A model generated the notes under the pieces. It saw only the letters and a program-made list of their open reading frames with translations, searched no databases and had not been told where the DNA came from. Below are positions 32,080 through 42,857 of a DNA stretch of 64,000 nucleotides, piece by piece. The stretch is from Truepera radiovictrix DSM 17093 (GTDB lineage: Bacteria; Deinococcota; Deinococci; Deinococcales; Trueperaceae), in the NCBI RefSeq assembly GCF_000092425.1, contig NC_014221.1:3043001-3107000 (forward strand). The letters run 5' to 3'. Within the stretch, counting starts at the first letter, position 1. Every line of letters starts with the position of its first letter. A program made the position numbers and the translations under genes.

Positions 32080-32265
32080 CTACTCAAAAACCACGGACAC
32101 GCCGTTACCCTCAAAAAAGATGTCCGCGCCGGTTAGGTCTCTCAAGCTTGCATACTGCGTCAAGCCGTTTAACCGGAATGTACCGGGTTCGGTAGCAGTG
32201 AATGTGAAGGTGTGGCTGTAGACGCTCGTCTCTCCCCGCATGACCGCATGATCGCCAAACTCTTT
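32080..32265 (-). pseudogene. C-terminal fragment of a third small two-cysteine lipoprotein
   Basis: The minus strand encodes FGDHAVMRGETSVYSHTFTFTATEPG and ends VSVVFE-stop, matching the C-terminal part of the lipoproteins at 34775 and 40271 (GTFIVQRGETRLFEHTFTFTSTVPG in one). It is cut at 32265 by an IS701-like element; the N-terminal half lies at 34402-34760. Confidence 0.8.
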
Positions 32266-32686: not shown

Positions 32687-33076
32687 ATGGATAAGGTCAC
32701 CACCACAAGAGCGCACGCCAGCTCGGAGGTCAGCGTACCGAGAAGATTTTCTACGAAGTACAAACTCGCTATCCTCGCAGAGATCGAGGCGGCCAACGAG
32801 AAGGGAGAGGTTGGACAGATTCTCCGTCGTGAAGGGTTGTACTCCTCGCTCATCTCGGAGTGGCGCAAGCAACGAGAGCGGGGTGCACTCGAAGCGATGA
32901 GCGGCAAGCAGCGCGGCCCCACGAAGGACAAGCTTGCTGCTGAGAATAAGCGGTTGCGAGAGCGACTTGCCCAGCTAGAGGAGCGTTTGGGTACGGTCGA
33001 GGAGTTGATTGATGCCCAGGGAAACGCTTTTGCGCTCTTGCAGGAGATGTCCCGCAAGAGCGACGGGGCGAAATGA
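32687..33076 (+). CDS. IS3-family transposase orfA
   Basis: The 129-residue protein has an HTH domain (FSTKYKLAILAEIEAAN, RREGLYSSLISEWRKQ) and a leucine-rich coiled coil (AAENKRLRERLAQLEERLG), the orfA layout of IS3 elements. Its end overlaps orfB (ATGA). It looks intact, but orfB is broken, so the element is probably immobile by itself. Confidence 0.85.
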   Translation: MDKVTTTRAHASSEVSVPRRFSTKYKLAILAEIEAANEKGEVGQILRREGLYSSLISEWRKQRERGALEAMSGKQRGPTKDKLAAENKRLRERLAQLEERLGTVEELIDAQGNAFALLQEMSRKSDGAK

Positions 33077-33498
33077 ATGAAATTTTGGACGAGCAAGTGA
33101 AACGCTTCGCCCCTCGTGTTGGCACCTTGCGTGCCTGTCGGGCGTTCGGTGTGAACCCGAGGACGTTTCGCCATCGTCGCCAAGCACAAAAAGGCCAACT
33201 GCCAATTAGGAAGTCGAGTCCACACAAGCCGCGCTCGCCGCATCCGGCCGCGCTCACCACTGAGGAGAGGCGGCAGATTCTCGGGGTCTTATGCTCCGAG
33301 CGCTTCTGTGACCTTCCTCCTGCGCAGGTGTTCAACACCTTGCTCGACGAAGGAACGCACCTCTGTTCAGTCCGGCAGATGTACCGTTTACTGGCAGAAC
33401 ACGGCCTTTTGTTCGAGCGGCGTCGTGGCGGTCATTTCCGTCGTGGTCTATACCCCATTCCACAACTCGAGGCAGCCGCGCCCGATCAGTGCTGGACT

Positions 33499-33540
33499 AG
33501 GTCATCGCCACTAGGCGAAGGGTCTAGTGACCCTAACCTG
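33499..33540 (+). repeat. Double-hairpin mini-element, copy 1 (42 nt)
   Basis: An outer stem AGGT/ACCT (33499-33502 with 33536-33539) encloses hairpin CGCC-ACTA-GGCG (33506-33517) and hairpin GGGTC-TAGT-GACCC (33520-33533). The two loops ACTA and TAGT are complementary. It is inserted in frame in orfB, adding 14 codons between CWT and WDITKL. Confidence 0.7.
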
Positions 33541-33975
33541 TGGGATATCACGAAGTTGCCAGGTTCTGCGAGGGGTGTCCATTACCACCTCTACACCGTT
33601 CTGGATATCTTCAGCCGGGAAGTGGTGGGGTGGATTGCGGAGCACGATACGGTGGCTACGCGTGAATCCGAGATGGTCGCACGTGAGCTCATCGACAAGA
33701 GCTGTCAGCGCGAAGGGATCAATCCCAACCAGCTCACCCTCCACGCCGACCGCGGCTCACCCATGGTGGCGCGTAGCATGGCCGACCTGCTAGACGAGTT
33801 AGGTGTTTACAAAAGTCACTCCAGGCCGCGCCTCTCAAACGACAACCCCTACAGCGAAGCACAGTTCAAAACGCTAAAGTACCGCCCTGACTATCCGCAG
33901 CGTTTCGAGTCTATCCAGACTGCCCACAACTGATGCCGAGAGTTCTTCGACTGGTACAGCTACAGCCACTACCAC

Positions 33976-34395: not shown

Positions 34396-34401
34396 GTTCT
34401 A

Positions 34402-34760
34402 TGTATATGGCTCGTATCATTTGACAGCGCGATGCTGTCGGGTAGGGGCACCCCGCCCGGTTCGCAGAGACCAACTTTCGAGACAACCTCCTCCCCATCT
34501 ACGCGTGAGAAGCAAGCTCCTAGAGTAAGGTCGTGCCAGACCCGTTCGGTCAGGTGAGTACAAGTTGGCACCTGAAACGAGGCTGAAAGGGTGACGGTAA
34601 CGCTTTCGCCCACCTAGGCTTGATTGAGATCAAGCTCGGTTTCAGCAGAACCTTCGACACCATAACCTCCTTCAAAGGGCTCACACGAGTAAGGGAACCA
34701 ATTGCAAGACGATAGCAACAGGCTCAGGCTGACAAGAGAAGAACAAACGATTCTTTTAAT
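34402..34760 (-). pseudogene. N-terminal fragment of the third small lipoprotein
   Basis: From 34760 the minus strand reads KRIVCSSLVSLSLLLSSC (lipobox LLSSC) and later GESVTVTLSASFQVP and LTLGACFSRVDG...GLCEPGG, clearly homologous to the lipoproteins at 34775 and 40271. The start codon position is ATT instead of ATG, there is an in-frame TAG before VGESVTV, and the IS701-like element ends the frame at 34402. It was the third gene of the module. Confidence 0.8.
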
Positions 34761-34774
34761 CTTCCCTCACTGCT

Positions 34775-35299
34775 CTACTTGAAAACGACCCGAACGGGTG
34801 TACCCCCGGCGTAATTCACCCTGGACGGACTTTGTCCCTGAAACTGCCTCACTGGTTCAATAGAGAACTCTCCCGGCACGGTCGAGGTAAAGGTAAAGGT
34901 ATGTTCAAAGAGGCGAGTCTCTCCGCGTTGAACTATGAACGTACCGTACTCTCTGACATGGTGCGTGCCGGCTAGCAGCTGAAATTCAGAAGGTAGAGGT
35001 AGGTCTTCATCTCTACATAAGCCGCCTCTAACTTCTGAAGCCGCTTCACCGAAGAATACGCAGGCACCCAATTTTAGGTCTTCGTGAACGTTCTCAGTTA
35101 AGCGGCTTTGACTAGGCAGCTCGAACCCACCTGTGAGGGTAACGGTGACAGAATCTCCTACCTTGGTCTGCGTTTTATCTGCTTCCGCAGTCAGCGCAAT
35201 CTCAAACCCATCGTATCTCTCCGGGTCGGGATTGAAAAACCCGCAGGCGGCTAGCAGGATGCAGAACACTGAGAGGTACAAGTACAAAGATAGTCTCAT
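34775..35299 (-). CDS. Small two-cysteine lipoprotein (module partner, copy 1)
   Basis: The 174-residue lipoprotein has lipobox LLAAC at about residue 19. The mature part is beta-rich and Ig-like: VGDSVTVTLTGGFELPSQSRLTE, then LGACVFF...GGLCRDEDLPLPSEF with two conserved cysteines (probably a disulfide), then RGETRLFEHTFTFTSTVPGEF. Three relatives are in this window. It begins 13 nt after the metalloprotease gene, so the two form an operon. No known family recognised; function unknown. Confidence 0.8.
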   Translation of the reverse strand: MRLSLYLYLSVFCILLAACGFFNPDPERYDGFEIALTAEADKTQTKVGDSVTVTLTGGFELPSQSRLTENVHEDLKLGACVFFGEAASEVRGGLCRDEDLPLPSEFQLLAGTHHVREYGTFIVQRGETRLFEHTFTFTSTVPGEFSIEPVRQFQGQSPSRVNYAGGTPVRVVFK

Positions 35300-35312: not shown

Positions 35313-37144
35313 CTACTTGTCGCACATGCCGGTAACGGCTAACGTGTTGTACTTAACGACAGAGCAGTACAAATCTCGTTGACTGCTGCTGAGCTTGGGG
35401 CTGATGCGGTTCTTGAACATGTACGTGAAGTTTTCTACAGGATGAGCATTGTAGAAATGGCTGGCAACCCTTGCGTAGCGTTGTTTCACGGATTCTAAGC
35501 TGTTGTAATACTTGACTGCATCAGCATCCGTGTCGGGAATCAAGTTCTGCGCGTTCGTATTGCTTAGAGCATGAGCGTCCGTCACATCCCAAAGGTACTG
35601 AGCGACACGTCCGGGAACCGCTGCGCCTGCTGGTTTGCTGCTAATGGAAGGTTTAACTTCAGGATCAAAAAGGTTGGTATCACGCCATCTATTACTTAGA
35701 ACCCTGGTCGTAATAGATTCAAACCAGAGAGCGAAACCCTCCAACATACCCGCACAGCCGTCCACATGCGACCATACACTCCATCCTGTCGAACCGTAGC
35801 ACCACGGAAAATCCGAGAGACCTGTTTTTACAGCCTTTTCGTGAGAACTTTGGTATGCACTTTCCCCAAGCATCCGGCGGTAGTACACCTCATGACCATA
35901 TTCATGAAAGAGCGTAGGGTCATAAGCTCCATCAGCGGGTTTTATGTACATGCGACCATAGTACGCACGCGAACGGGGAATAATCTGGCTGCTGTCCGGG
36001 TAAACGACCGATAGGGGAAAGGTGTCGTACAGACCATGGGAAGTTCGTTCCCAGTCATGGACTCTATTCACTTTGTAGAAAACGCGCTGGGCAAGCTGAA
36101 TGTTGCTGGCCGAGTTTTTAGTCGAAGCGTACACGGTCGTGTTTCTAAGGCTTGTCGGGGTGTTGATGCGACCGGAGGGGGAGACGACTTGTGTTTGCCA
36201 AGTGCGTAAGGGATAGGTATCTATCGTCCGGGTGTGTATATAGATACCCGTTTGCGTCCAAGCCAAAATCTTAAACGTTGTCGTTTTCTCGCAGCCGGCG
36301 GTGAACTCGAGTGCCCCTCCTGCCCCAACATGGCGCGTTTGGTTAAGAGTTCTGTGAGAAGAAGGGGCGGTCATATCGCCGGAGATATAGACGCGCGTCG
36401 AGCTTGGGAGCGGTTGAAAGCTTCCGTCAACATAGGACTTGAGAAAGACTTTCGTCAATGCTCTTGTGCAGCTAGCGGCAGTTGAGCTTGGCTCGCCCGT
36501 ACCTACCTGCGAACCGGCATTAGAAACGATGATGTCCATAGGCTCGCCCAAGTTGCCGTTCTCTTCGGGGAACCGAACGTCGTTGACGATGACGTCGCCC
36601 GGTTTGTCGCTGCCATACACTTCGAGCGCGTCCAAACCATCAAGGACAGGGAGCGAGGCGTAATACTCGTCGAGGGTGACAGGTTCACCGATGATGGTTT
36701 CGGCTTGAGCTTGAAAGTCACTCTCGTGTGACGGTTCAAAGTTGACGTAAAGCACGTTCGCAGCCGTGCCCTCTGCAAAAGAGGCGCGGACGCTCAGCAT
36801 ATTGAGTTGCGCTTTGGTCGCCCTACCGCTCAGGCGCACCTCCGCGCGACCGGCTCCATCGGAGGTAACGGAAGCTTCGCTGATGCTCGGGATGATGCCC
36901 CAGTTGTTGATGTCGAGTGTGATGGTGTCGTTGGGGGGGAAGTCCTCGAGCTCGACGATGATGGGGAACGAATTGCCGAGCGGGATGCTCTCCCGCAGCG
37001 CTTCAACCGTCAAAGTAGGCAGTGCAGCTTCTTCTCGAGCAGCGCTAAACTCCTGCGGCACACTCGGCTCGGTCGTCCGGCAGCCCGCCAATACCAATAG
37101 AACGCCTATGTATGTATGTATGTATGTATGTATCTCGGCTTCAT
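35313..37144 (-). CDS. HExxH lipoprotein metalloprotease, copy 1 (phase-off in this sequence)
   Basis: The frame encodes a lipobox (LVLAGC), a beta-rich N-terminal half and a C-terminal gluzincin-like zinc site: HEYGHE (35889-35906) and a later Glu in GMLEGFALWFES. It is homologous throughout to the protein at 40807. The conserved ATGAAG start at 37144 is separated from this frame by six TATG units and runs into a stop after 12 codons; four or seven units would restore it. An in-frame ATG at 37205 would give a hydrophilic leader with no proper signal peptide. Probably a phase-variable surface protein; substrate unknown. Confidence 0.78.
37107..37133. repeat. (TATG)6 tetranucleotide repeat in the metalloprotease signal peptide
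   Basis: Six TATG units plus TAT, lying 4 codons after the conserved ATG on the minus strand. Slippage by one unit shifts the reading frame; four or seven units would be in frame. Confidence 0.95.
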
Positions 37145-37249
37145 CCTGCTCGTCCCCTCGCCCAAACGAAATTAGCCGAACGGCGCAGCGCACAGACCCG
37201 TACACATCACACGCTGTTTACTTTTACCCGCTACTCCGTTACTAGGGGG

Positions 37250-37313
37250 AGTGTAGAGCAAAAGCAAGCGCCCTACCAGAGCAAACTCAGCAAAAACTTA
37301 ATCGTTTCTTAAC
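37250..37313 (-). promoter_or_regulatory. Promoter of metalloprotease copy 1: TTAAG direct repeat and TACACT box
   Basis: On the minus strand TTAAG-N6-TTAAG (37298-37313, 11-bp period) is followed 42 nt later by TACACT (37250-37255). The same two blocks, 41 nt apart, precede copy 2. An 11-bp direct repeat is the pattern bound by PhoB/OmpR-type regulators. Confidence 0.55.
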
Positions 37314-37438
37314 CTGGGCGCGCCGAGTCTACCGTGCTCTGTTTCGGCTACGAATGATGACTAAGCTTGTTAGTCGAGGACCTAAAAAACTATCGCGAGC
37401 AAGCGACGGTGAAGGGCGTAACTGGCTATGCTGGAGGG

Positions 37439-38318: not shown

Positions 38319-39353
38319 GTGACACGACGCGCCTACACGATCACGCTGATTCCAGGCGACGGCATCGGTCAAGAGGTCGTTCCCGCCGCCGAGCGCTTGC
38401 TCCGCGAGACGGGGCTCCCTTTAGAGATGCACTACGCCGAAGCCGGTTGGGACACCTTTCAAAAGGTCGGCAAAAGCGTCCCCGACGAGACCCTCGAGCG
38501 GGTCAAGGCCTCCGACGCGACGCTCGCCGGCGCCTTTACCAGCCCGAGCGGGTCGCAAAAGGTGCCGGGCTTTCAGGGGGCGATCCGCTACCTGCGCCGC
38601 ACCCTGGATCTGTTTGCCAACCTCCGCCCGACCAAGTCGCGCCCCATCCCCGGCTCCATGAAAAACGTCGACATGCTCATGGTCCGCGAGAACACCCAGG
38701 GGCTCTACGTCGAGCAGGAGCGGCGCTACGGCGACGTCGCGATCGCCGACTGCGTGATCACCAAAGGGGCCTCGGAGCGCATCGCCAAGGTGGCGCTCAA
38801 AGAGGCGCAGCGGCGGCGGCGCAAGCTCGCGGTGATCCACAAGGCCAACGTCTTGCCCCTTACCACGGGGCTCTTTTTAGAGACCGCGCTGGAGGCCGCC
38901 AAAGCCTTCCCCGAGGTCGAGACCTACGACATCATCGTCGACGCGGCGGCCATGAAGCTTGTGCGCGACCCGCAGAGCTTCGACGTGCTGGTCACCACCA
39001 ACTTGTTCGGCGACATCCTAAGCGACCTCATGGCGGGCCTCGTGGGGGGTTTAGGCCTCGCGCCGAGCGCGAACATCGGCGAGCGGACGGCCATCTTCGA
39101 ACCCGTCCACGGCTCCGCCCCCGACATCGCCGGCAAGGGCGTCGCCAACCCCGCCGCGACCTTCTTGACCGCCGCGATGATGCTCGACTACTTGGGCGAG
39201 GCGGCGACCGCCAAGCGCATCGACCGCGCCGTCGACACGGTTTTAGAGGAGGGGCCGCGCACCGCCGACCTGGGCGGCAAAGCCGACACAGAGGAGTTTA
39301 CGGACGCGGTCATCGAGGCGTTTAGGAGCCTCGCACCGCACGAAGCTGCGTAG
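38319..39353 (+). CDS. hicd: Homoisocitrate dehydrogenase
   Basis: The 344-residue beta-decarboxylating dehydrogenase is very similar, as I recall it, to the Thermus enzyme of the alpha-aminoadipate lysine route: [32 protein letters not shown] (substrate-choosing arginine region), [36 protein letters not shown], and [15 protein letters not shown]. It converts homoisocitrate to 2-oxoadipate with NAD. The GTG start has GAGGTGAACT in front. Other lysine genes are not in the window. Confidence 0.92.
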
Positions 39354-39387
39354 CGCCGACGGGCGACGGGACGCTGCGCCAAAGGCC

Positions 39388-39417
39388 CGCAGCCCCGCAC
39401 CAGCGCGCGGGGCTGCG
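39388..39417 (+). terminator. Terminator hairpin after hicd
   Basis: CGCAGCCCCGC (39388-39398) pairs perfectly with GCGGGGCTGCG (39407-39417), followed by TTGT. The stem is strong, the U tract poor. Confidence 0.65.
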
Positions 39418-39445
39418 TTGTCCCGACCTCTCACGGCGGCCCTAC

Positions 39446-40268
39446 TCAAAGAGAGCCTGAAACAGATGAGGACACAACCGAGGTCAAGAAAGGCTTGATG
39501 GATGTCGGCTCGACGCTCATAACGGACCTTCAAGCGGCGGAAACGGTTAAGCCATGAGCCAGTGCGCTCAATCACCCAACGGTAACGGCCCAAACGCTCG
39601 CTACTGTCGACTCCCTTACGGGCAATGCGGGGCGTGATAGAGCGTTTGCGCAGTTGATGACGACAGTTCCAGCTGTCATAGGCTTTGTCGGCGTGCAGCT
39701 TCTCGGGCCGCTTGCGAGGTCGTCCCCGTGGGCCTTTGATGGGTTCGATACGTTCTAACAGCTCGGCCAGCACCTGCGATTCATGCCGGTTTGCGCCGGT
39801 GAGAAGGGTGGCTAAGGGGATGCCCTGCCGCTCGACCACAACAGGGCGCTTCGTGCCCTGTTTGCCCCTATCCGCCTCCTTCGCCCCCCCTGGCGCGGGC
39901 ACACTAAAGCAGTCCACACAAGCACGTTCCCAATCGATCTGGTTTGCCTCCCCGAGCCTGTCGAGGAGCACCCGGTGAAGCCGATGCCAAACGCCTGCTT
40001 CCTGCCAGTCCCTAAGCCGTCGTCAGCACGTCACCCCACTGCCGCAGCCCATCTCCTGCAGCAGCAGCTCCCACGCAATGCCGCTCTTGAGCACGGACAA
40101 GATGCCCGTCGGCGCAGCACGGTCGGCAACTCGAGGGCGGCCCCCTTTGGGCTTGGCGGGCTCTTTGGGCAGTAGCGGTTCCATGACGTTCCACAGCGCA
40201 TCGGTTACTAAGGGCTTCGCCATGCGCTACTTTAGACGATCTTGCCATGAGGTTTTGAAAGGTGCTCT
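39446..40268 (-). mobile_element. IS5-family insertion sequence
   Basis: It holds one transposase gene of IS5 type. Ends are imprecise: AGAG-rich and AAAC-containing inverted blocks near 39450 and 40268, with CTA on both outer sides (39442-39444 and 40267-40269), the kind of 3-bp target copied by many IS5 elements. It lies directly beside the stop of the lipoprotein gene at 40271. Confidence 0.65.
39449..40223 (-). pseudogene. IS5-family transposase with in-frame nonsense codon
   Basis: The protein frame starts KPLVTDALWNVMEPLLP, has Asp in CVDCFSVPAPGG, Asp in LHADKAYDS, and Glu in RWVIERTGSWLNRFRRLK, the IS5 DDE set. A TGA at 40021-40023 replaces what should be Trp in the CWRRLRDWQ block; reading is otherwise continuous. 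There is no stop inside the element's left end: the frame runs on to 39243 into hicd antisense. Confidence 0.8.
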
Positions 40269-40270
40269 AA

Positions 40271-40816
40271 CTACTCGAAGAATATCTCGGTACGGAAGCC
40301 GTTAGCGAAATCTGGTGTGCCCCATTCACCTCTTACAAATCGCATGTTTGGAAAAAGGACGACTTTCCCGGCTTTTGTCGAGGTAAAGGTAAACTCGTGA
40401 ACCAAGTCACGGGTTTGTCCTCGTTTTACGACGACATCGCCGAGATCAGTTATGAACTTACTGCCGTTCAGCATGTTTAGGTGTGATGGAAGGGGGGTGT
40501 CGTGCTCTCCAGAGGAAAGACAGAAGCCTCTTGGGTCAACGACATGTTCTTCTTGCACATCCGAGGCAAAACACGCTCCAAGCAGGACGTTCTCTAGCAC
40601 TTGAGAAGGCACTCTGCTCTGACTATGCAAAACGAGGTCGGTCGTAAGCGTTACTGTTACGGGTTGGGCTATTTTAACAGTAGTTGCAGATACTTCCGCC
40701 GTCGGCGGAAGCACCCCTATAGAGTCGAACGCGTCTACGGACGGATTGCACGCACTGAGAAGAGCGGCAAGCAACAGCCAAGCAACTATTCTGACCTTTA
40801 CCTGACCTAATTGCAT
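40271..40816 (-). CDS. Small two-cysteine lipoprotein (module partner, copy 2)
   Basis: The 181-residue lipoprotein has lipobox LLSAC, then PVTVTLTTDLVLHSQSR, LGACFASDVQEEHVVDPRGFC (the conserved cysteine pair) and RGQTRDLVHEFTFTSTKAGKV. It is homologous to 34775-35299 and to the split copy. Its ATG lies inside the end of the metalloprotease gene (10-bp overlap), so expression is coupled. Unknown function; probably an exported partner or inhibitor of the protease (inference). Confidence 0.82.
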   Translation of the reverse strand: MQLGQVKVRIVAWLLLAALLSACNPSVDAFDSIGVLPPTAEVSATTVKIAQPVTVTLTTDLVLHSQSRVPSQVLENVLLGACFASDVQEEHVVDPRGFCLSSGEHDTPLPSHLNMLNGSKFITDLGDVVVKRGQTRDLVHEFTFTSTKAGKVVLFPNMRFVRGEWGTPDFANGFRTEIFFE

Positions 40817-42567
40817 GACGATACCGTAATTGTGTTAGCGACCATGACTCTCCTATGCGCCTCACAAGTTCCGAGTGACCTTGTATCCGGGCGGATGTTC
40901 TGCTGCCATACCTGATCAATGCTTGAGTGTGTAGCCATTCCGCGAAAAAAGTTTGCTACTCGCGTGTAGCGTAAATCCAGTTCCTCGTTTGTGCGCACAA
41001 ACGCATCACTGTCGTCATCTTTGAGACGAGCCTGCGAACCGCTATCGTCAGCGATGTCATAGAGATATGCAGCAACGTTTCCGGGCACGCGAGGCCCTGA
41101 AGGAGCGCTCGATGGTCGAAACTCGGTACGTCTGTACAACCGTGTATTGAGCCTCGCAGTCGCTACTTGCTCAAAAAACACTGCCCACCCCTCCAAAAGG
41201 CCAGCACAGTTACTCTCATCTCCCCAGAGAGACCAACCAAGCGCACCCAAACAGGCTGGATAACTTACAGGTAGCCCTGATACAGCCTCTTGATGAGCAC
41301 GGTTATACGCCGATGCTCCCATCATCCTTCGGTAGTAGACCTCGTGGCCGAACTCGTGGTAAATCCCAGCGTCATAGAGCGCAAAACCATCCGCGTACAT
41401 GATGCGCCCTATTCCAGCAAGGCTGCCTTTGGAACTAATGTACGGATAGAACGCATCGACAGGAAAGCTACTATAAACAGTGGACGCTTTTCGCTCCCAG
41501 TTGTAGACCTGATTGAGCCTAAAAAACAGTCTCTGCGACTTACGACTAAAAGAGCTAGCGGTTGATGGAGCCATCTGAATATTACGGTTACGCACAGTAT
41601 CCGCGTTAAAACTACCGGACGAGGCGCGCTCACTCTTCTTCCACATTACAGGCTTGTTGAAGACCTCACCTGTATGCATAGATATACCGGTACTGGTCCA
41701 AGCAAGAACTTTGAAGTGCAACTGAGTGCTGCAACCAAGGTAAAATTCTAAACGTCCGTTGTTTCCCACAAGCTTAACTTGTTCCCTATATGTGTGGTCA
41801 GAGATGTAAACACGCGTGTTGACAGGAAAATTCACAGCCTGACCATCGACCGTGGTCTTTAGATTAATGTAAGTGAGCCTCCTTGTACAATCCGTTGCCT
41901 GAGGCATCGCAACGCTCTCGGAACCGACATCAAACATAATGGCATCGAGCGGCTCTAGTTGCCCGTCCTCGCCCACCAGCCTTACGCCGTCTAAGACGAC
42001 ACCGGAAGCGTTCTCCTGATGTGCGTAAAGGTCTTGAGGTGTTTTAGCTACAGGCAGCGTTTGGTAGTAATCCTCTATAGTGATGGGAGATCCGATGATA
42101 TCGCCGTCGTCCGCTGCTTGGGCTTGAAACAAACCCTCTTGAGGGGGCTCGAAGTCTATGTACAACGTTCCCGTGACAACACCGCCATCTTCCATGCGGC
42201 CTATCGCGTCCAAAGAGACAAGCTTCGGTTGGTGAGCACTACCTCTCAACGATAATTCAGCGTAGCCAGCAGCGTTGGTCTGCAATGTCGTCGCATCGGT
42301 TCCAACTTGCATGCCGTCTGCGAACAGTTGCACCTGGATCTGCTCACCTGGAGGGGCATCCTTGACGACAACTCTGATAGGAAACGAATCGGCTAACGGA
42401 ATATCATCCCGCAGCGCCTCAATCGTCAAGCTTGGTAGAGGGGTTTCTGCTTGAGTTGGGTTGAACCGACGCTCCGTGGGGGAGATTGCGGTCGTTTTAC
42501 ACGCTATGAGTGCCACAACGACCAAGCAAAGACCTATGTATGTATGTATGTATCGCCCCAGCTTCAT
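40807..42567 (-). CDS. HExxH lipoprotein metalloprotease, copy 2 (phase-on)
   Basis: The 586-residue protein has a lipoprotein signal with lipobox ALIAC, an Ig-like N-terminal part (PLPSLTIEALRDDIPLADSFPI), and a zinc site HEFGHE (H404, E405, H408) with E459 in GLLEGWAVFFEQ as the probable third ligand, the gluzincin spacing. A Cys pair (PACLGALGWSLWGDESNC) around the active site is shared with copy 1. ATGAAG at 42567 is preceded by GGGGGTAAGG and the (TATG)4 repeat keeps it in frame. Base use is less GC-rich than the flanking genes. Confidence 0.85.
   Translation of the reverse strand: MKLGRYIHTYIGLCLVVVALIACKTTAISPTERRFNPTQAETPLPSLTIEALRDDIPLADSFPIRVVVKDAPPGEQIQVQLFADGMQVGTDATTLQTNAAGYAELSLRGSAHQPKLVSLDAIGRMEDGGVVTGTLYIDFEPPQEGLFQAQAADDGDIIGSPITIEDYYQTLPVAKTPQDLYAHQENASGVVLDGVRLVGEDGQLEPLDAIMFDVGSESVAMPQATDCTRRLTYINLKTTVDGQAVNFPVNTRVYISDHTYREQVKLVGNNGRLEFYLGCSTQLHFKVLAWTSTGISMHTGEVFNKPVMWKKSERASSGSFNADTVRNRNIQMAPSTASSFSRKSQRLFFRLNQVYNWERKASTVYSSFPVDAFYPYISSKGSLAGIGRIMYADGFALYDAGIYHEFGHEVYYRRMMGASAYNRAHQEAVSGLPVSYPACLGALGWSLWGDESNCAGLLEGWAVFFEQVATARLNTRLYRRTEFRPSSAPSGPRVPGNVAAYLYDIADDSGSQARLKDDDSDAFVRTNEELDLRYTRVANFFRGMATHSSIDQVWQQNIRPDTRSLGTCEAHRRVMVANTITVSSCN
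42535..42553. repeat. (TATG)4 tetranucleotide repeat in metalloprotease copy 2
   Basis: Four TATG units plus TAT, at the same place in the signal peptide as the six-unit repeat of copy 1. Here the ATG frame is open. Confidence 0.95.
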
Positions 42568-42671: not shown

Positions 42672-42734
42672 AGTGTAGAGCTACAGAGGCGACTTGTCCA
42701 CATCAGATTCACCAAAACCTTAATCATTCCTTAA
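42672..42734 (-). promoter_or_regulatory. Promoter of metalloprotease copy 2: TTAAG direct repeat and TACACT box
   Basis: On the minus strand TTAAG-N6-TTAAG (42719-42734) lies 41 nt before TACACT (42672-42677). The block matches the copy 1 promoter, including CAAAA next to the repeat. Confidence 0.55.
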
Positions 42735-42857
42735 TCTAGGCTGGGGCGACGGCTCACCCTGCACAGCGCATCTCACGGGACGTTTTGGTATAACGCAGTA
42801 GACTTCCTGCCCGTCGCGCAGGCAACCTAAGCTTTAGTTTCGTCCCTCAGGAGCTCT

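Follow-up and report, generated by a model that had tools for sequence, protein, structure and literature searches.

A tetranucleotide tract at the start of a predicted metalloprotease lipoprotein gene in Truepera radiovictrix: a candidate contingency locus in Deinococcota

Contingency loci are thought of chiefly as tools of host-associated bacteria. Among the closest described systems to the locus reported here are lic1A, lic2A and mod of Haemophilus influenzae, in which a tetranucleotide tract sits early in the coding sequence, such that one register is ON and two are OFF. The first survey of H. influenzae counted tracts of five or more units (PMC4235727), and the same cut-off for tetranucleotides served in a survey of phase variation in Neisseria (PMC5953494). 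Tracts of 3-12 AGTC units have been classed as ‘mutable’, with rates of 1e-7 to 1e-5 per division, and tracts of >10 units as ‘hypermutable’ (PMC4235727).

A tract of the same kind is present near the start of one of two paralogous genes for predicted protease lipoproteins (copy 1 and copy 2) in Truepera radiovictrix, a free-living, radiation-resistant bacterium of hot springs. The window analysed here, the 64,000 nucleotides from 3,043,001 to 3,107,000, is one part of the T. radiovictrix genome, a single contig of 3,260,398 bp, and all unit counts derive from this one genome of the species. The 5′ region of copy 1 comprises the following features.

37142..37144, minus strand: ATG start codon of copy 1, which opens a 12-codon frame ending with TAG at the tract exit
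37107..37133, minus strand: tetranucleotide tract of copy 1, 27 bp as a maximal run, ATA + (CATA)6 on the coding strand
35313..37106, minus strand: protease frame of copy 1, 597 codons plus stop, out of frame with its own start; lipobox LAGC, HEYGHEVYYRR

Read from 37144 on the minus strand, the sequence is ATGAAGCCGAGATA(CATA)6GGCGTT..., which is translated as MKPRYIHTYIHT*. An earlier note had claimed that the frame opened by ATGAAG at 37144 stops after 12 codons and that the protease frame is off-register from this ATG, and translation bears out both statements: a TAG is reached on leaving the six CATA units, and from 37106 to 35313 the protease frame continues for 597 codons without a stop. 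When copy 1 was re-translated by script with 1-10 units, the full protein was obtained only with 1, 4, 7 or 10 of them, in agreement with the note's expectation that two units fewer or one more would join the ATG to the protein. With 3, 6 or 9 units, a TAG is positioned where the ribosome exits the tract, and with 2, 5 or 8 units a stop follows less than about 20 codons past it. Copy 1 thus carries a non-triplet tandem tract in its 5′ coding region, the unit number of which sets the reading frame.

The note had also described the homologous gene as in frame with four units, and this proved accurate for copy 2, which opens at ATG 42567 and carries (CATA)4.

40807..42567, minus strand: in-frame gene of copy 2, encoding a protease lipoprotein of 586 aa with lipobox LIAC and HEFGHEVYYRR
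42535..42553, minus strand: tetranucleotide tract of copy 2, 19 bp as a maximal run, ATA + (CATA)4

The two proteases are 38% identical, and their silent sites are saturated: the same codon is used at 37.7% of identical residues, where 34.9% would be expected if codons were fully randomised. Despite this saturation, both copies encode YIHTYI with perfectly repeated codons. Among long genes sampled from this genome, ATA accounts for 1.7% of Ile codons and ACA for 2.5% of Thr codons. The chance of the six YIHTYI codons per copy is 4e-7 with genome codon usage; with that of the cassette to which these genes belong, which is richer in A+T, it is 0.003. We rejected recent gene conversion between the copies as the source of the shared tract because the flanks, including most of the 5′ untranslated region, have diverged, as have the silent sites. 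Slippage by itself can maintain the purity of a tract, and so its persistence is no proof of selection for switching.

The copy 1 tract exceeds what chance would produce. No match was found in 100 shuffles of the window, and (CATA)4 or more occurs in the 3.26-Mb genome only at the two protease copies; among 111 Deinococcota genomes, runs of more than four CATA units are present in this genome only. Within an 864-kb sample of the genome (40 spread stretches plus the window, with 5 kb of the sample masked), the 27-bp tract surpasses in length every other microsatellite with a period of 1-8 bp. Among tetranucleotide runs it is followed by the 19-bp tract, and the third longest measures 13 bp. In simulated 1-Mb sequences matched for dinucleotide composition, runs reached no more than 14-16 bp. 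Copy 1, with six units, also passes the usual cut-off of five, whereas the four units of copy 2 fall short of it.

We take the encoded protein to be a predicted zinc metallopeptidase lipoprotein, based on the motif HE(F/Y)GHEVYYR and a conserved EG(W/F)A...FE located approximately 51 residues downstream. This arrangement, HExxH followed by a downstream glutamate, is of the gluzincin type, and residues H404, E405, H408 and E459/E466 (copy 2 numbering) are invariant in three homologues; our guess is that either E459 or E466 would be the zinc-binding glutamate. By eye, each homologue has a signal peptide with a lipobox and cysteine (LAGC in copy 1, if joined to its start; LIAC in copy 2; LSAC in the Deinococcus radiophilus protein described below), and it is the lipobox that suggests a surface location. 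The protease gave no sequence match in Pfam, NCBIfam or PDB, and its predicted structures (pLDDT 38 and 32) were unusable.

No relative of the protease was found in 40 related genomes or in the other 110 genomes of the phylum, where two weak matches of <50 residues were unconvincing, nor in assembled genome contigs, viral contigs or phages, and a genome of the same genus is without the gene. The sole homologue found is on plasmid pRadio4 of D. radiophilus (NZ_CP086383.1). This protein is 26% identical to copy 2 and, as in Truepera, has the HEYGHEVYYR motif and a lipobox; also as in Truepera, a TTAAG box is located upstream of the gene and a small lipoprotein gene downstream, the likeness of the latter being judged by eye. 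Unlike both Truepera copies, it has no CATA tract, its start being MKSRSMLLLGCLGLLSACG, and no family member outside the T. radiovictrix pair carries one. The PLSDB gene table omits the pRadio4 gene, which spans the start of its database record; once both ends of the record are joined, a 609-aa protease followed by a 164-aa lipoprotein can be read.

In Truepera, each protease gene is likewise followed by a gene for a small lipoprotein, and further features of the region are listed here.

34775..35299, minus strand: gene for the 174-aa small lipoprotein that accompanies copy 1, beginning 13 bp past the protease stop
40271..40816, minus strand: gene for the 181-aa small lipoprotein that accompanies copy 2, with a 10-bp overlap with the protease end
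34401..34661, minus strand: third small-lipoprotein gene, a relic interrupted by TAG
37297..37314, minus strand: direct-repeat box GGTTAAG-N4-GATTAAG upstream of copy 1
42719..42736, minus strand: direct-repeat box GATTAAG-N4-GATTAAG upstream of copy 2

Protease and small lipoprotein together are likely to constitute an acquired, mobile cassette, because the G+C content of the cassette genes is low (51-54%, compared with 67% in the window), transposase-like frames adjoin them, and the neighbouring ThiF/MoeB-like gene has a different gene upstream of it in the genome of the same genus. The transposase-like frames, at 32687-33933 and 39243-40248, flank the cassettes and appear by eye to be IS3-like and IS4/IS5-like, which suggests mobility. 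More partial or interrupted copies of the small-lipoprotein gene lie at 32152-32265 of the window and at about 1,901,600-1,902,700 of the genome, with no protease gene adjoining.

The upstream boxes are instances of a pattern, RNTTAAG-N4-RNTTAAG, that occurs at 11 sites in the genome, of which two overlap on opposite strands; the reversed pattern has 0 occurrences. Its 11-bp period resembles the sites of OmpR/PhoB-type regulators. The pattern is frequently found 5′ of genes for lipoproteins or envelope proteins, both protease copies included, and a related form is present at the D. radiophilus cassette.

Upstream of the tract, the protease frame stays open to 37205, so copy 1 might be expressed as it is, from GTG 37205 or GTG 37193. 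Here the earlier note was mistaken in placing an in-frame ATG at 37205: that codon is GTG, and an ATG lies close by at 37207 but in a different frame. With a generic anti-Shine-Dalgarno sequence, both canonical starts match strongly, with duplex energies of -7.8 kcal/mol for ATG 37144 of copy 1 and -10.7 kcal/mol for ATG 42567 of copy 2, against a 5% quantile of -7.1 kcal/mol at random background positions; GTG 37193 has a weak match (-3.2 kcal/mol), and GTG 37205 has none (-0.6 kcal/mol). Moreover, the leader starting at GTG 37205 would be 42 residues long with an acidic N-terminal part (net -2), in contrast to the +2 n-region of copy 2, which has no counterpart of the upstream GTG starts, and copy 1 retains the canonical ATGAAG with its own ribosome site. 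We therefore consider expression from either GTG improbable. Programmed frameshifting at copy 1 was rejected, since the CATA tract holds no known slippery site. The Illumina reads numbered 6.39 million and totalled 230.2 Mb, and at 36 bases each they barely exceed the 27-bp tract; an incorrect unit number in the assembly nonetheless strikes us as very improbable. The weakness of 454 sequencing concerns homopolymers, not tetranucleotides. The T. radiovictrix RQ-24T chromosome (68.1% G+C) was finished at 153x by a combination of 454 and Illumina sequencing, with over half of this coverage from long 454 reads (PMC3072082).

The main rival is a recent, one-way knock-out, wherein a single slip to six units in the sequenced lineage made copy 1 a young pseudogene and no switching has been selected. 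Such an event shares the anatomy of a switch locus, and if recent it would leave copy 1 looking just as it does. Six units are few for a fast switch (PMC4235727), and the presence of only two (CATA)4+ tracts genome-wide, with no further long tetranucleotide tract in the 864 kb, does not point to a broader group of switched genes. The partner-gene relics, which contain stops or are fragmentary, indicate that decay is visible in this gene set, yet it is absent from copy 1. There, HExxH and its conserved neighbouring residues are preserved, and no stop or other added disabling change occurs in 1.8 kb of sequence across 597 codons. A comparison that takes the D. radiophilus protein as outgroup assigns 45 unique changes to copy 1 and 56 to copy 2 (chi2 1.2), and thus gives no sign of accelerated evolution in copy 1. 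The perfect tract kept in both paralogues, set against their saturated silent sites, also speaks against a chance knock-out, and on balance we judge this explanation to be unlikely, though a good deal more credible than an upstream start.

We favour the reading that copy 1 is a translational contingency locus, driven by slippage and caught in the OFF state, that controls a zinc-protease lipoprotein, and we assign it a probability of roughly 0.58. The note's proposal of a contingency locus is partly upheld, in that the tract follows the start codon, the gene behind it is intact, the product is predicted to be exported, a paralogue is in the ON register and the tract goes beyond chance; it is weakened by a count of six units, below classic lengths, in one genome. 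According to this model, a ribosome would initiate at ATG 37144 and read through the CATA tract, which would code for the front of a cleavable lipoprotein signal peptide. With six units, translation would terminate at the TAG on exit from the tract, and replication slippage would alter the unit count. Because the residues encoded by the tract are expected to be removed with the signal peptide, 4 or 7 units should give the identical mature lipoprotein, the predicted zinc metallopeptidase. Since the partner gene begins within 13 bp, its product may drop along with that of copy 1 whenever the latter is OFF. The four units of copy 2 would place this gene in the ON state, and it could switch as well, at a lower rate.

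Published rate classes and cut-offs imply that a six-unit tract would switch at a modest rate, far lower than that of the classic Haemophilus loci; by unit count it belongs to the ‘mutable’ class, and not among hypermutable tracts with rates of 1e-5 or more per division. Long microsatellites have been associated with host dependence (PMC4060949), and we counted the free-living habit of T. radiovictrix against a switch. More tentatively, and somewhat short of even odds in our estimation, the two paralogues might switch independently (ON/ON, ON/OFF, OFF/ON, OFF/OFF) as parts of a mobile cassette of two genes, hitherto undescribed, in a radiation-resistant, free-living species of Deinococcota.

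The earlier note knew of no description of such a locus in Deinococcota, and our literature search likewise returned only general surveys or work on other organisms, with no account of repeat-driven phase variation in this phylum, although most subscription papers lay outside its scope and it is therefore weak evidence of absence. If the model is correct, a switch exists in a free-living extremophile from a phylum known for faithful genome repair, which raises the question of what fluctuating pressure (phage, predators or competitors) selects it. NalP of Neisseria meningitidis is lipidated. This surface protease is subject to phase variation and trims other proteins on the cell surface (PMC3723659). 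It offers a functional comparison only, with no sequence relation claimed: NalP is an autotransporter governed by a poly-C tract, whereas the Truepera gene has a tetranucleotide tract and its product is predicted to be a zinc metallopeptidase. The H. influenzae loci mostly have tracts of 15 or more units and their switching has been measured, whereas the Truepera copies have six and four units in the genome sequence; repeat unit, product and phylum all differ. What T. radiovictrix presents is a candidate, rather than a proven case, of a mechanism that is already known, in a host phylum that is new as far as we could find.
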